Part shown: positions 2,634-7,401 of the stretch, one piece after another
Layout: each line of letters starts with the position of its first letter
Position numbering within the stretch: the first letter of the stretch is position 1
Source of the DNA: an uncultured Bacillota bacterium
Lineage (GTDB): Bacteria > Bacillota_I > Bacilli_A > RF39 > UBA660
Assembly: GCA_947165005.1 (NCBI GenBank)
Contig: CAMUYN010000006.1
Coordinates: forward strand, 1-47,364
Reading direction: 5' to 3'
Length of the DNA stretch: 47,364 nt
Position numbers and translations under genes: made by a program
Notes under the pieces: model-generated
What the model saw: the letters and a program-made list of their open reading frames with translations, nothing else
The model's database searches: none
What the model was told of the DNA's origin: nothing

Positions 2634-2650
2634 CTCCGAAGAGTTATTTC
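2624..2650. terminator. Bidirectional intrinsic terminator
   Basis: AAATAACTC-CGAA-GAGTTATTT hairpin between convergent genes. Confidence 0.8.
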
Positions 2651-3174
2651 CATTCAAAGCTATTAACAATTTTCTTTGCAGCAGTATTACAATCATCCCC
2701 ACTACCGTTAAAAATAGTCTCATGAACTAATACATATTTATGGTCTCCTATTATATAATGCTGTATAGTCTTTTGATTGTTTCCTTCAATATTAAAAGTA
2801 TAAACTATGTATCCATTATCAGTAGTAGAACCACTGCTTGTTAATGTCATACCATAAGGTTTTATTTGATTGCCTAATTGTTCTAATATAGCCTGCCTAA
2901 ATGTCATATGTTCATCAATCGAATAATAATTAGTTCCCATCTCTACCGATATATTATTTGGTGGATTATGACTATCACTAGGATTATAGAAAAAATATTT
3001 AGTAGATGTTGAATGGTCTTCACTTTTAATCCACGTATCAGGAATAATATAAGACCCATAATTAGTAGATATAATATTTGAAACATTACTATCTCTTTTT
3101 ATAGTTGTCCTAGGTTTCAAAACACAACCAGTAAATAATAAACAAACTGTAAGTATAATTAATATTTTCTTCAT
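2644..3174 (-). CDS. Putative lipoprotein
   Basis: MKKILIILTVCLLFTGC lipobox signal peptide. Confidence 0.75.
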   Translation of the reverse strand: MKKILIILTVCLLFTGCVLKPRTTIKRDSNVSNIISTNYGSYIIPDTWIKSEDHSTSTKYFFYNPSDSHNPPNNISVEMGTNYYSIDEHMTFRQAILEQLGNQIKPYGMTLTSSGSTTDNGYIVYTFNIEGNNQKTIQHYIIGDHKYVLVHETIFNGSGDDCNTAAKKIVNSFEWK

Positions 3175-3201
3175 AGTACCTCCATAAAACTATTTTAACA
3201 T

Positions 3202-3229
3202 AAAAAAATAACTCTTACGAGTTATTTTT
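3202..3229. terminator. Intrinsic terminator
   Basis: AATAACTC-TTAC-GAGTTATT followed by a T-run. Confidence 0.75.
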
Positions 3230-4382
3230 CTTCAACTTTTTTTACTTCTTTTGAAGTATTGGCATCTTTATTTTTCTTAAAGTAAAATATCAATCCAATT
3301 GCTAATGCTGCAGCTGATGCTAATGAAATGATAGCAACTATAGGTCTTGCAGCAAACCATGCTATAGCTATTACTATTAAAGAAATAACTAGACCTATTA
3401 AGAATGAGACTACACCAATCATAGAATTTACAATATTACCTAAGAATGGAATAAATCCAATTAATGTAGTTATTGGTCCAAGAATCATAGATACACCCAT
3501 AATAATTATAAGTGTTCCAACAATTCTCATAAACCATTTAGATGCTTTAGCACCCTTTTCTATGCTATTAATCATTTGATTAGCATTCATTATTCCTTTA
3601 TATAATTTTGCATAACTTGTATTAGTCTTTGTATCATATGCTCCGACAGTATTATCAATCTGTTTTCCTAAAATTGAAACATTATCATATTGAGCTACTT
3701 TATAAGATATACGAACATCTCCAATTTGTGGATTAGCTGGATCAATACTATTAGTAATATAATTATTATTTATAGTATATCCTTCAGCTAATATAGCATT
3801 TGTAAAATCTTTGTAGTCTTCAGTAGCACTTATTTGATCTTTAAAACTATCAATTAATACAAATTCCCCTACTTTTAAACTATCTTCAACAACTAATGAT
3901 ATTCCTTCATAAGGCATTGAAGTTGGATTTTCATGTCCATTAGTAGTATTGAAATTGCTTGAATCAATAATCTTTTGAGACCATTCCTTACTGTATGTAT
4001 AAGTTACTTTCTTATCGTTTTCAGTACTATCTTCAACCCATTCATACATTTCTACTACTCTTTCTAATTTTGGTGTTTTAGCACTAATATTAAATAGAGT
4101 ATCAACTATTGGATTTTCACCATATTCAAGTTTACCACTTAAAGCAACTAATTTTCCTTCGTTTTTACTATCTACCTTAGGGCTAGATAAATCAACTACA
4201 TTATTTCTTAGTTCCTTCACATCCTTAATATTTCTTACATTATTTTTTTCATTATTTCCTAAAAGAAATATACCTAAAATAACTAAGAAAATACCTAATG
4301 GAATTCCTGCAAAAGAATTCGCAATTTTACTTAAGAAACTTTGTTTCTCTTTGTTTACAACAACTTTATCATTGTCTGCCAT
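3222..4382 (-). CDS. TMEM43/LUMA family membrane protein
   Basis: VEMYEWVE...YTYSKEWSQKIIDSSNF...GHENPTSMP, GDVRISY, and C-terminal TM cluster AWFAARPI match the TMEM43 (PF07787) pattern from memory; start moved to the ATG at 4382 (MADNDK) behind GAGGTG. Confidence 0.8.
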   Translation of the reverse strand: MADNDKVVVNKEKQSFLSKIANSFAGIPLGIFLVILGIFLLGNNEKNNVRNIKDVKELRNNVVDLSSPKVDSKNEGKLVALSGKLEYGENPIVDTLFNISAKTPKLERVVEMYEWVEDSTENDKKVTYTYSKEWSQKIIDSSNFNTTNGHENPTSMPYEGISLVVEDSLKVGEFVLIDSFKDQISATEDYKDFTNAILAEGYTINNNYITNSIDPANPQIGDVRISYKVAQYDNVSILGKQIDNTVGAYDTKTNTSYAKLYKGIMNANQMINSIEKGAKASKWFMRIVGTLIIIMGVSMILGPITTLIGFIPFLGNIVNSMIGVVSFLIGLVISLIVIAIAWFAARPIVAIISLASAAALAIGLIFYFKKNKDANTSKEVKKVEEK

Positions 4383-4431
4383 TTTCTTCACCTCTATTCT
4401 GATTTTATCACAATAGAATAATATAGACAAC

Positions 4432-4457
4432 AAAAAAACTAACATAATTGTTAGTTT
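4432..4457 (-). terminator. Terminator of the tRNA unit
   Basis: AAACTAAC-loop-GTTAGTTT with a T-run on the minus strand. Confidence 0.75.
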
Positions 4458-4466
4458 GTTTACAAA

Positions 4467-4543
4467 TGGTGACCTATACGGGATTCGAACCCATGAATGC
4501 CGCCGTGAAAGGGCGGTGTGTTAAGCCACTTCACCAATAGGCC
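4467..4543 (-). tRNA. tRNA-Glu (UUC)
   Basis: Cloverleaf GGCCTAT...CCGCC-CTTTCAC-GGCGG...GGTTCGAATCC...ATAGGTCA-CCA. Confidence 0.95.
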
Positions 4544-4564
4544 ATTATGTAAAATTAAAATTAA

Positions 4565-4641
<77 letters not shown>

Positions 4642-4711
4642 AATTCATTAATGCTATTTAATTTTACATTATTTTTTACTAAAAAGCAATATGTTTTATT
4701 AAATTATTAAA

Positions 4712-4759
4712 AAAAGTGCAATTATTTAATATCTAGTTTACTAGATAAAACAATTGCAC
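4712..4759 (-). terminator. Nested-stem intrinsic terminator
   Basis: GTGCAATT...ATCTAGT-tt-ACTAGAT...AATTGCAC followed by a T-run on the minus strand. Confidence 0.75.
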
Positions 4760-4823
4760 AATACATAAATATAAACATTACAAGAATGAATATACTTATT
4801 AATATACACAGAATTTTAATCAT
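4722..4823 (-). CDS. 33-aa single-TM small protein
   Basis: MIKILCILISIFILVMFIFMYCAIVLSSKLDIK*; AGAGGT upstream; own terminator; not in ORF track. Confidence 0.6.
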   Translation of the reverse strand: MIKILCILISIFILVMFIFMYCAIVLSSKLDIK

Positions 4824-4851
4824 ATACTAAACCTCTAATACTAGTATATAA

Positions 4852-4877
4852 AAAAAAGCGATTATTTATTCATCGCT
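4852..4877 (-). terminator. Intrinsic terminator of the LCP gene
   Basis: AAAGCGAT...ATCGCTTT with T-run; overlaps the stop codon. Confidence 0.75.
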
Positions 4878-6338
4878 TTCTGTCCCTAAAACTGCATTTA
4901 ATTTACTAACAGCTTCATTCATAGTATCTCCATCAGGAACCATAACATATAATGCTTGATTTGGATAACTATATGTATATGCACTTGTACCTGATCCTGT
5001 TACTGAATATTTTTCTAGTGACCAACCTGGCATATCCTTAATTTGCATTTTAACTAATGCTGTTATTTCTTCATTTGACATATTTGTTTCAAATGTGCCA
5101 TTTAATGCATTAAGTATTCCACTATAATTTGATACTAAAGTTGTAGAAGATGTAACCTTATGAAGAATTTGGTCAATAACATGTTGTTGATTCTCGCCTC
5201 TATGTCTATCCCCAGATTCATAAGCATATCTTTCTCTAGCAAATGCAAGAGCACATCTTCCATCTACACCATAATTCCATTCTGGTTGGAATGAGCAAGC
5301 AGCATCTGTATAACTTCTAAAACTATATGATTGATCATTATAAATGTCAATTCCACCAATAGAATTTACTAAATTAGTAACAAAATTAAAATTAACTCTA
5401 ACATAATATGAAATCTTTATTCCAAATGCACTTTCAATAGTTTCTATTGTTTTATCTACACCACCTATTGTACCAGTATGTGTTAATTTATCTTTAGATC
5501 CAGTTCCTGGAATATCTAAATAATAATCTCTTGGAATATGTACAAGTAAAATTTGATGTGTTTTTGGATTAACAGCCATTAACATATTAACATCTGATAA
5601 TGATCTAGATGGTAAATAATCACTTCTTGTATCAATACCATTTATTAAAACTACAAATGGGTCTTCTGTAACATCAAGGTTTGTCTTTTTTACTTCTTTT
5701 TTAGTTTTTATTTCTATAGTATCTAATATTTTTACTTTACCAGAATAACTATCATTATTTTGTACCATTACTTCATAATTACCAGAGTTAACAAATACAA
5801 TTAAATCCTTATCAGAAGTTAGATTATTTAATAAATCATATATATTTGTCTCATATTCTATATCTACCTTTACTTTTTTAAGTAAAGTTTTTTCTACAGA
5901 ATCCATATTTTTTTGATCTTTATATGAATATATTGTCTCACCTTTTATATCCTTTAGTTTCTTATAATTTGAATTTTTATTAACTAAAACATAATAAACA
6001 TTTGTTTCAAAACTTACACCCAAATTCTTTTCTAAGAAACCAACAGTATCTTTTATTTTTAAAGAACCAAATAAAGATAATGCTATATATATTACTAGTA
6101 TAAATGAAACAACTGATAATGATGTTCTCCCAGCTTTTTTTCTTAAAGCTAGAGCTCCAAGAATAAATAGCAACAAGAACATTGCTCCAATAACTATTAA
6201 ATAATAATTAAGTGGTAGCATATTTAATTTATTCAATTCATATCCAAAAAATATTGTACTAGCAATTGCTAAAATCCATAATAATCTGGATGCGAATTTT
6301 AAAATCTTACTAGCTTTTTTCTTTTCTCTTTTTTTCAT
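4866..6338 (-). CDS. LytR-CpsA-Psr (LCP) family cell-wall glycopolymer transferase
   Basis: NGIDTRSD, DVNMLMAVNPKTHQILLVHIPRD, GRCALAFARERYAYESGDRHRGENQQ. Confidence 0.93.
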   Translation of the reverse strand: MKKREKKKASKILKFASRLLWILAIASTIFFGYELNKLNMLPLNYYLIVIGAMFLLLFILGALALRKKAGRTSLSVVSFILVIYIALSLFGSLKIKDTVGFLEKNLGVSFETNVYYVLVNKNSNYKKLKDIKGETIYSYKDQKNMDSVEKTLLKKVKVDIEYETNIYDLLNNLTSDKDLIVFVNSGNYEVMVQNNDSYSGKVKILDTIEIKTKKEVKKTNLDVTEDPFVVLINGIDTRSDYLPSRSLSDVNMLMAVNPKTHQILLVHIPRDYYLDIPGTGSKDKLTHTGTIGGVDKTIETIESAFGIKISYYVRVNFNFVTNLVNSIGGIDIYNDQSYSFRSYTDAACSFQPEWNYGVDGRCALAFARERYAYESGDRHRGENQQHVIDQILHKVTSSTTLVSNYSGILNALNGTFETNMSNEEITALVKMQIKDMPGWSLEKYSVTGSGTSAYTYSYPNQALYVMVPDGDTMNEAVSKLNAVLGTESDE

Positions 6339-6348
6339 ACTTGACTCC

Positions 6349-7401
6349 TTACTCTATTGATAGAGGTCTATCATGTATCATAACTTCAATATAAGTTCTT
6401 CCATCAGATACCTCTATTTCTTCTCCATTTAAATATGTATACTTAGTTTTTGCATTTCTATCAGATTTACTCCATCTTATAGGAACAGCTTTACCATTTG
6501 TAACAAAGTATCCATCACCTTCACCTACATCATTTAAATTCCAATATTTGTTATCTTGCATAACATAATAAGATACTTTTTCTATTATTATATTTTTTGC
6601 AGTAAACACTTCACCAGTAGAAAAATCTGTTGTATCTACTCCATTAACATTTCTAGTATACATTTTAGTCTCGCCATTATAATTAAATGTATCTTCTACG
6701 CTACCATAATCAATATATACTCTATTAGCAGTCATTGCACCTTCTTTTTCTGATAAATCTACATCTTCAGGATTATATTTTAAAAGTATAGTATTATCAC
6801 TCTCTAGGCCATACCCTTTTGTATCTCTTGCATAATTATATACTGTACTAGTATTTAAATTAACTGTATGTTCAGAATCTAAATCAAGTGGATTTTCTCT
6901 ATACATTCCACCTTCTCCAGCAATACCATTAACATAGTTTATAGCACCACCTTTTAATTGATCCTCCGCATGATGACTCCAACCGAACGCAACAAATATT
7001 GCATCACTTTCACTAGCAAAATCTATCATATTATGTCTAGCACTTCTTATAGTACCAAATTTAACATCATCAGTACCTTTGTATAATGCAATTAATCTTG
7101 AAGTATAACCTTCAGTAGGTATTTCATAAACAATATATGCCTTATTCAATCCTTGTTGAACCTTAATGGCCACAGGAGTATTATTTATAGAAATAGCAAG
7201 TGGTCTTAATTTAGAATTAATATCAACAATATCTACTCCTTCAACTTTTACTTCCTTTTTAGGAACAGTTTTATTATTATTATTTTTCGGTTTTGATTTA
7301 TCTTTTGGTCTAAATACAATTAATAAAACTAAACCAGTTAAAATTATAAATAATAAAGCTAATACTAATATTAAAATTTTCTTTTTATTCATTTTCTTCA
7401 T
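6349..7401 (-). CDS. DUF3048 (YerB-like) membrane-anchored protein
   Basis: LRPLAISINN, FGTIRSARHNMIDFASESDAIFVAFGWS, N-terminal TM/signal. Confidence 0.8.
   Translation of the reverse strand: MKKMNKKKILILVLALLFIILTGLVLLIVFRPKDKSKPKNNNNKTVPKKEVKVEGVDIVDINSKLRPLAISINNTPVAIKVQQGLNKAYIVYEIPTEGYTSRLIALYKGTDDVKFGTIRSARHNMIDFASESDAIFVAFGWSHHAEDQLKGGAINYVNGIAGEGGMYRENPLDLDSEHTVNLNTSTVYNYARDTKGYGLESDNTILLKYNPEDVDLSEKEGAMTANRVYIDYGSVEDTFNYNGETKMYTRNVNGVDTTDFSTGEVFTAKNIIIEKVSYYVMQDNKYWNLNDVGEGDGYFVTNGKAVPIRWSKSDRNAKTKYTYLNGEEIEVSDGRTYIEVMIHDRPLSIE

Follow-up and report, generated by a model that had tools for sequence, protein, structure and literature searches.

A TMEM43 family (PF07787) membrane protein gene in an uncultured Bacillota bacterium: predicted topology, patchy distribution and rapid divergence

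Mutations in human TMEM43, a heart-disease protein, can be fatal, yet the biochemical function of the protein is disputed, with scaffold, channel and lipid regulator all having been proposed. The activity reported for it in animals is not catalysis but binding, with emerin, lamins, SUN2, squalene synthase and VDAC as partners (PMC12494557, PMC12618784). The roles assigned to it are those of a binder of membrane and nuclear-envelope proteins, a regulator of lipid metabolism and, in the work of a single group, a channel for cations (PMC12494557, PMC12618784, PMC11059273). Experiments on the human and fly proteins indicate four transmembrane segments (TMs), two cytoplasmic termini and a luminal loop of ∼250 residues, and loss of the gene is not lethal in flies or mice (PMC9307560). 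Bacterial homologs have also been described (PMC9307560, citing Bengtsson and Otto 2008; PMC12295021). The protein examined here thus adds a member to a known family, and its fast evolution and patchy distribution are new details of modest interest; we found no discussion in the literature of TMEM43 in the lineage of the source bacterium. The significance of the family does not depend on this one locus, since homologs in bacteria are long known and some of them come from culturable Roseobacteraceae and Methylobacterium. Bacterial proteins are also easier to purify and solve.

The window analyzed here is a stretch of 47,364 nucleotides from a bacterium with a small genome (contig CAMUYN010000006.1, assembly GCA_947165005.1), for which a sequence-only reading had proposed a bacterial TMEM43 homolog at 3222–4382, a claim that the lack of a PF07787 match would have undone. 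The minus-strand frame at 3222..4382 is intact and its 386-residue product matches PF07787 unambiguously and over the full profile (positions 1–250 of 250), with a score of 206 bits and an E-value of 8e-61; this is nearly nine times the curated cut-off of 23.3 bits. The motifs on which that reading had relied (VEMYEWVE, YSKEWSQKIIDSSNF, GHENPTSMP, GDVRISY and AWFAARPI) are all present in the protein. PF07787 was the only Pfam family above its cut-off in the protein, with no second domain, and none of the NCBIfam models matched; a genome-wide profile search returned a single PF07787 gene in the source genome (207 bits). The open reading frame as called mechanically extends to an ATG at 4445. 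We took the ATG at 4382 as the start, because a good ribosome-binding site (AGAGGTG, 4389..4395, minus strand) lies 6 nt upstream of it and because the protein of the sister species starts there, with MADNN. Comparison with that species gave a dN/dS of ∼0.45 (NG86), indicating purifying selection and hence a frame that did not arise by chance. Judged by these matches, the window encodes a genuine relative of human TMEM43.

Genes of this family are unevenly distributed around the source bacterium. Of the genomes sampled, those with PF07787 numbered 9 of 12 in the genus, 17 of 386 in the family, 11 of 395 in the class and 4 of 295 in the phylum, with overlap among the four samples. A scan of named species genomes with exact peptide patterns, which detect close relatives only, returned one relative, from an ‘uncultured Tenericutes bacterium’. 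More distant relatives, at 25–28% identity, are carried by plasmids of Alphaproteobacteria, where they are annotated as ‘TMEM43 family protein’. Two variant forms were also observed. In one genome (G354) the gene is split over two frames with a stop codon inside (L039:291-1446), pointing to a decaying gene or to a fault in the assembly. In another (G661) it encodes a short form of 274 amino acids (L041:7577-8401), 28% identical to the protein of the window, in which the loop is kept, TM3–4 are missing and one C-terminal hydrophobic segment is present.

Hydropathy analysis of the window protein identified an N-terminal hydrophobic segment at residues ∼26–43 (peak at 26–36) and a continuous C-terminal hydrophobic cluster at residues ∼287–370 (peaks at ∼291–360), which we divided into three TMs using hydropathy, the alignment described below and the helices of a low-confidence structural model. 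The region between them (residues ∼44–283, ∼240 amino acids) corresponds to an acidic extracytoplasmic loop with a pI of 4.97. The N- and C-terminal tails are both basic by charge computation, so that under the positive-inside rule the protein is predicted to have four TMs and both ends in the cytoplasm. The architecture proposed from sequence (an N-terminal TM, a large extracytoplasmic domain and a C-terminal TM cluster) is thus borne out by hydropathy, in agreement with the published human and fly topology (PMC9307560). The protein contains no cysteines, and we recognized no catalytic signature in it.

In an alignment of 18 family members, including three from Pseudomonadota, residues R108, E111, Y130, N152, G221 and G263 are invariant in all 18 proteins, and E45, W134, Q241, R286 and W342 are almost so. 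The conserved residues lie mostly in the loop (R108, E111, Y130, W134, N152, G221 and Q241), with R286, W342 and the RP pair at 346–347 located at the TMs. Residue S358 of human TMEM43 sits in TM3; at the position of its candidate counterpart, S334 of the window protein, 14 of the 17 members that have TM3 carry S or T, and the Pseudomonadota carry G. An AlphaFold2 model built from two sequences (mean pLDDT 44, pTM 0.32) was too poor for fold comparison, and a natterin-like structural match (E 0.3) was set aside as chance. We found no solved TMEM43 structure in the PDB.

The pattern of conservation also bears on a rival reading in which TM2–4 would assemble into an oligomeric pore that passes cations non-selectively and is controlled by the acidic domain outside the membrane; such a channel has been claimed for the human protein under the name ‘Gapjinc’. 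A review citing a preprint (PMC11059273) describes non-selective cation currents from the human protein, blocked by Gd3+ and low pH, together with single-channel openings of the purified protein in bilayers, and in our comparison TM2–4 are the best-conserved part of the protein (69% identical to the sister protein in the TM region, versus 51% in the loop). However, we saw no conserved pattern of polar or charged pore-lining residues in the TMs apart from S/T/G334, W342 and the RP residues; the short form described above has dispensed with TM3–4 yet retains the loop; and the claim for the human protein rests largely on one group. We consider a channel function for the bacterial protein distinctly unlikely.

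The gene appears to form its own transcription unit. An intrinsic-terminator-like hairpin (AAATAACTC-GTAA-GAGTTATTT followed by a T-run; 3202..3231, minus strand) overlaps the stop codon, with a fold of −12.7 kcal/mol and a z-score of −5.1 that none of 200 shuffled sequences equaled in stability; it would close the unit ahead of the downstream lipoprotein gene (2644..3174, minus strand; 176 amino acids, lipobox LLFTGC, no known family). That gene has a terminator-like hairpin of its own at ∼2627–2651, and a third hairpin ends the LytR gene upstream of TMEM43. A promoter-like site (TTGTCT-17-TAAAAT, with TG ahead of the second hexamer) lies at 4402..4430 on the minus strand, but it is weak, such sites being no commoner around the gene than in shuffled sequence. 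Genes for tRNA-Glu(ttc) and tRNA-Ile(gat) are located upstream at 4467–4543 and 4565–4641, respectively, both on the minus strand. The lipoprotein gene and the tRNA pair to which the sequence-only reading drew attention are real, but they are improbable as partners, because TMEM43 carries both a ribosome-binding site and a terminator-like hairpin for itself and because its neighbors differ elsewhere. The gene is probably monocistronic, and the adjoining genes should not be taken to form an operon with it.

Comparison of ∼15 TMEM43 loci showed neighbors that are nearly all different, and we rejected the idea of a conserved gene partner on that account. The locus of the sister genome (G670) is syntenic: the lipoprotein gene (62% identity), TMEM43, tRNA-Glu/Ile, LytR, DUF3048, Tgt and AckA are arranged there as in the window. 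A link between TMEM43 and the lipoprotein was likewise rejected, since the adjacency is common to the sister genome only. The two loci also differ in places. In G670 tRNA-Glu and TMEM43 are separated by a gene of 208 amino acids (L094:7963-8589), missing from the window, whose product was judged by eye to resemble a D-alanyl-D-alanine carboxypeptidase. Conversely, a penicillin-binding protein (PBP) gene (311–2323) and an open reading frame of 87 amino acids (2370–2633) lie between rpmG and the lipoprotein gene of the window, and the PBP gene is missing from the corresponding place in G670, so that it has been inserted, moved or lost in one relative to the other. At three further loci (L022:3517-4305, L030:9011-9841 and L036:5217-6146) TMEM43 is followed immediately, on its own strand, by a gene whose product has an N-terminal Zn-ribbon. 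These products did not cluster together at the threshold used, and we regard the Zn-ribbon gene as a weak lead to a partner.

TMEM43 showed the lowest identity to the sister genome of all genes compared, at 55%. The housekeeping proteins Tgt and AckA are 96% and 95% identical, and the neighboring extracytoplasmic proteins fall in between (lipoprotein 62%, LytR 70–71%, DUF3048 72%). The same ranking is seen in dN/dS (NG86), at 0.45 for TMEM43, 0.26–0.34 for the adjacent extracytoplasmic genes and 0.07–0.14 for housekeeping genes and MraZ. The block at 2644–7401 that holds the lipoprotein, TMEM43, LytR and DUF3048 genes is 55–72% identical to its sister counterpart, versus 87–96% for the adjoining genes. 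Since the neighboring extracytoplasmic genes also diverge fast, the speed of TMEM43 is partly a property of the exposed proteins in this block. The values of dS are raised across the block (0.65–0.92, versus 0.34–0.49 elsewhere; 0.69 for the PBP gene), which makes recombinational import of divergent alleles and fast mutation look alike here.

Inheritance of the gene is also irregular. In the TMEM43 tree the genus member G456 joins sequences from other lineages (L022 and G354); in the Tgt tree it stays with its own genus. A tree holding all TMEM43 proteins of the genus together was rejected with a p-AU of 5e-48, a value that is indicative since the constrained group was picked after viewing the tree, although the accompanying drop in log-likelihood of 144 is still large. 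From the two placements and the rejected tree it follows that G456 appears to carry a TMEM43 version from another lineage, acquired by transfer or left by an old duplication with differential loss.

Together with the patchiness in genus and family and the contrast with Tgt and AckA, the case of G456 is what would be expected if TMEM43 were a surface-exposed, fast-evolving envelope accessory, acting at a host or phage interface or in cell-wall homeostasis and gained and lost between lineages. The setting points the same way in the window and its sister, where the gene lies among PBP, LytR-CpsA-Psr and D-Ala carboxypeptidase-like genes, but in other genomes it has genes for DNA polymerase III, for trigger factor or for Zn-ribbon proteins as neighbors, and the neighboring extracytoplasmic genes share its rapid divergence. 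A PADLOC scan for anti-phage defense systems gave no match, no relative was present among 50,697 phage records and none was detected in viral contigs scanned with exact patterns. We regard an accessory role of this kind as rather unlikely, if a serious contender. The idea of TMEM43 as phage or mobile cargo was rejected, there being no phage or viral-contig relative and plasmid relatives in Alphaproteobacteria only. A bolder version, in which bacterial TMEM43 would be a mobile, fast-evolving envelope module whose loop diverges through a variable outside partner, and in which the eukaryotic nuclear-envelope protein would derive from a bacterial surface-interaction protein, seems to us very improbable.

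The best explanation we can offer, tentatively and stopping short of calling it probable, is that bacterial TMEM43 is a non-enzymatic scaffold or adaptor of the cytoplasmic membrane. We infer this localization and function from the topology, the lack of enzyme features, the dispensability of the protein and the animal literature. The protein would sit in the cytoplasmic membrane with its ends inside, four TMs and an acidic domain of ∼240 residues outside, and the outer domain and TM2–4 bundle would bind and stabilize other envelope proteins or lipids. Such a role would resemble that inferred for animal TMEM43 and would be dispensable in most relatives. The invariant residues of the loop are of a structural type (R, E, Y, W, N, G and Q), which favors a scaffold, and the viability of fly and mouse knock-outs matches a dispensability indicated by the presence of PF07787 in so few genomes of the family. 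Against it, no partner is conserved beside TMEM43 in the ∼15 loci compared, and the fast divergence of the loop (51%) is not what would be expected of a scaffold that binds a conserved partner.

A more specific function, the control of lipid or isoprenoid metabolism through binding of squalene synthase, has been proposed in animals, where the human protein binds this enzyme and suppresses SREBP (PMC12494557) and fly Tmem43 affects lipid homeostasis (PMC9307560). Its extension to bacteria appears extremely improbable: the same search detected SQS_PSY (PF00494) in none of 18 TMEM43-bearing genomes versus 7 of 14 controls. The squalene synthase link was accordingly set aside as unsupported in these carriers, and on this count it cannot, as far as gene content indicates, be simply ancestral to the TMEM43 of this lineage; a broader lipid role may exist. 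Proteins of the SPFH/Band_7 class were uninformative, occurring in 16 of 18 carriers and 14 of 14 controls.

The known systems close to the window protein include TMEM43 proteins of related uncultured Bacilli-type bacteria (for example at L022, from the ‘uncultured Tenericutes bacterium’), which are 36–56% identical to it over their full length and share its layout, in gene neighborhoods unlike that of the window. The plasmid-borne proteins of Phaeobacter, Ruegeria and Methylobacterium (WP_096873442.1, WP_011536664.1 and WP_012340174.1) match PF07787 at 176–236 bits and have the same layout and invariant residues. In two Roseobacteraceae the gene belongs to a conserved row of unnamed genes that is missing at the window; on the Phaeobacter and Ruegeria plasmids (L023:4281-7390 and L025:4280-7393) it lies with three unnamed genes lacking Pfam families, and this row is the best place to seek partners of bacterial TMEM43. 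Human TMEM43/LUMA and Drosophila CG8111 belong to the same Pfam family (PF07787, formerly DUF1625), which the bacterial protein matches over its full length, and they share the layout predicted for that protein, with four TMs, cytoplasmic ends and a large, acidic outer loop. The emerin, lamin, SUN2 and ER–mitochondria associations of the human protein are inapplicable to a bacterium without a nucleus or ER, and a homolog in a cell that lacks both of these and a detectable squalene synthase narrows the possible ancestral function of the family.
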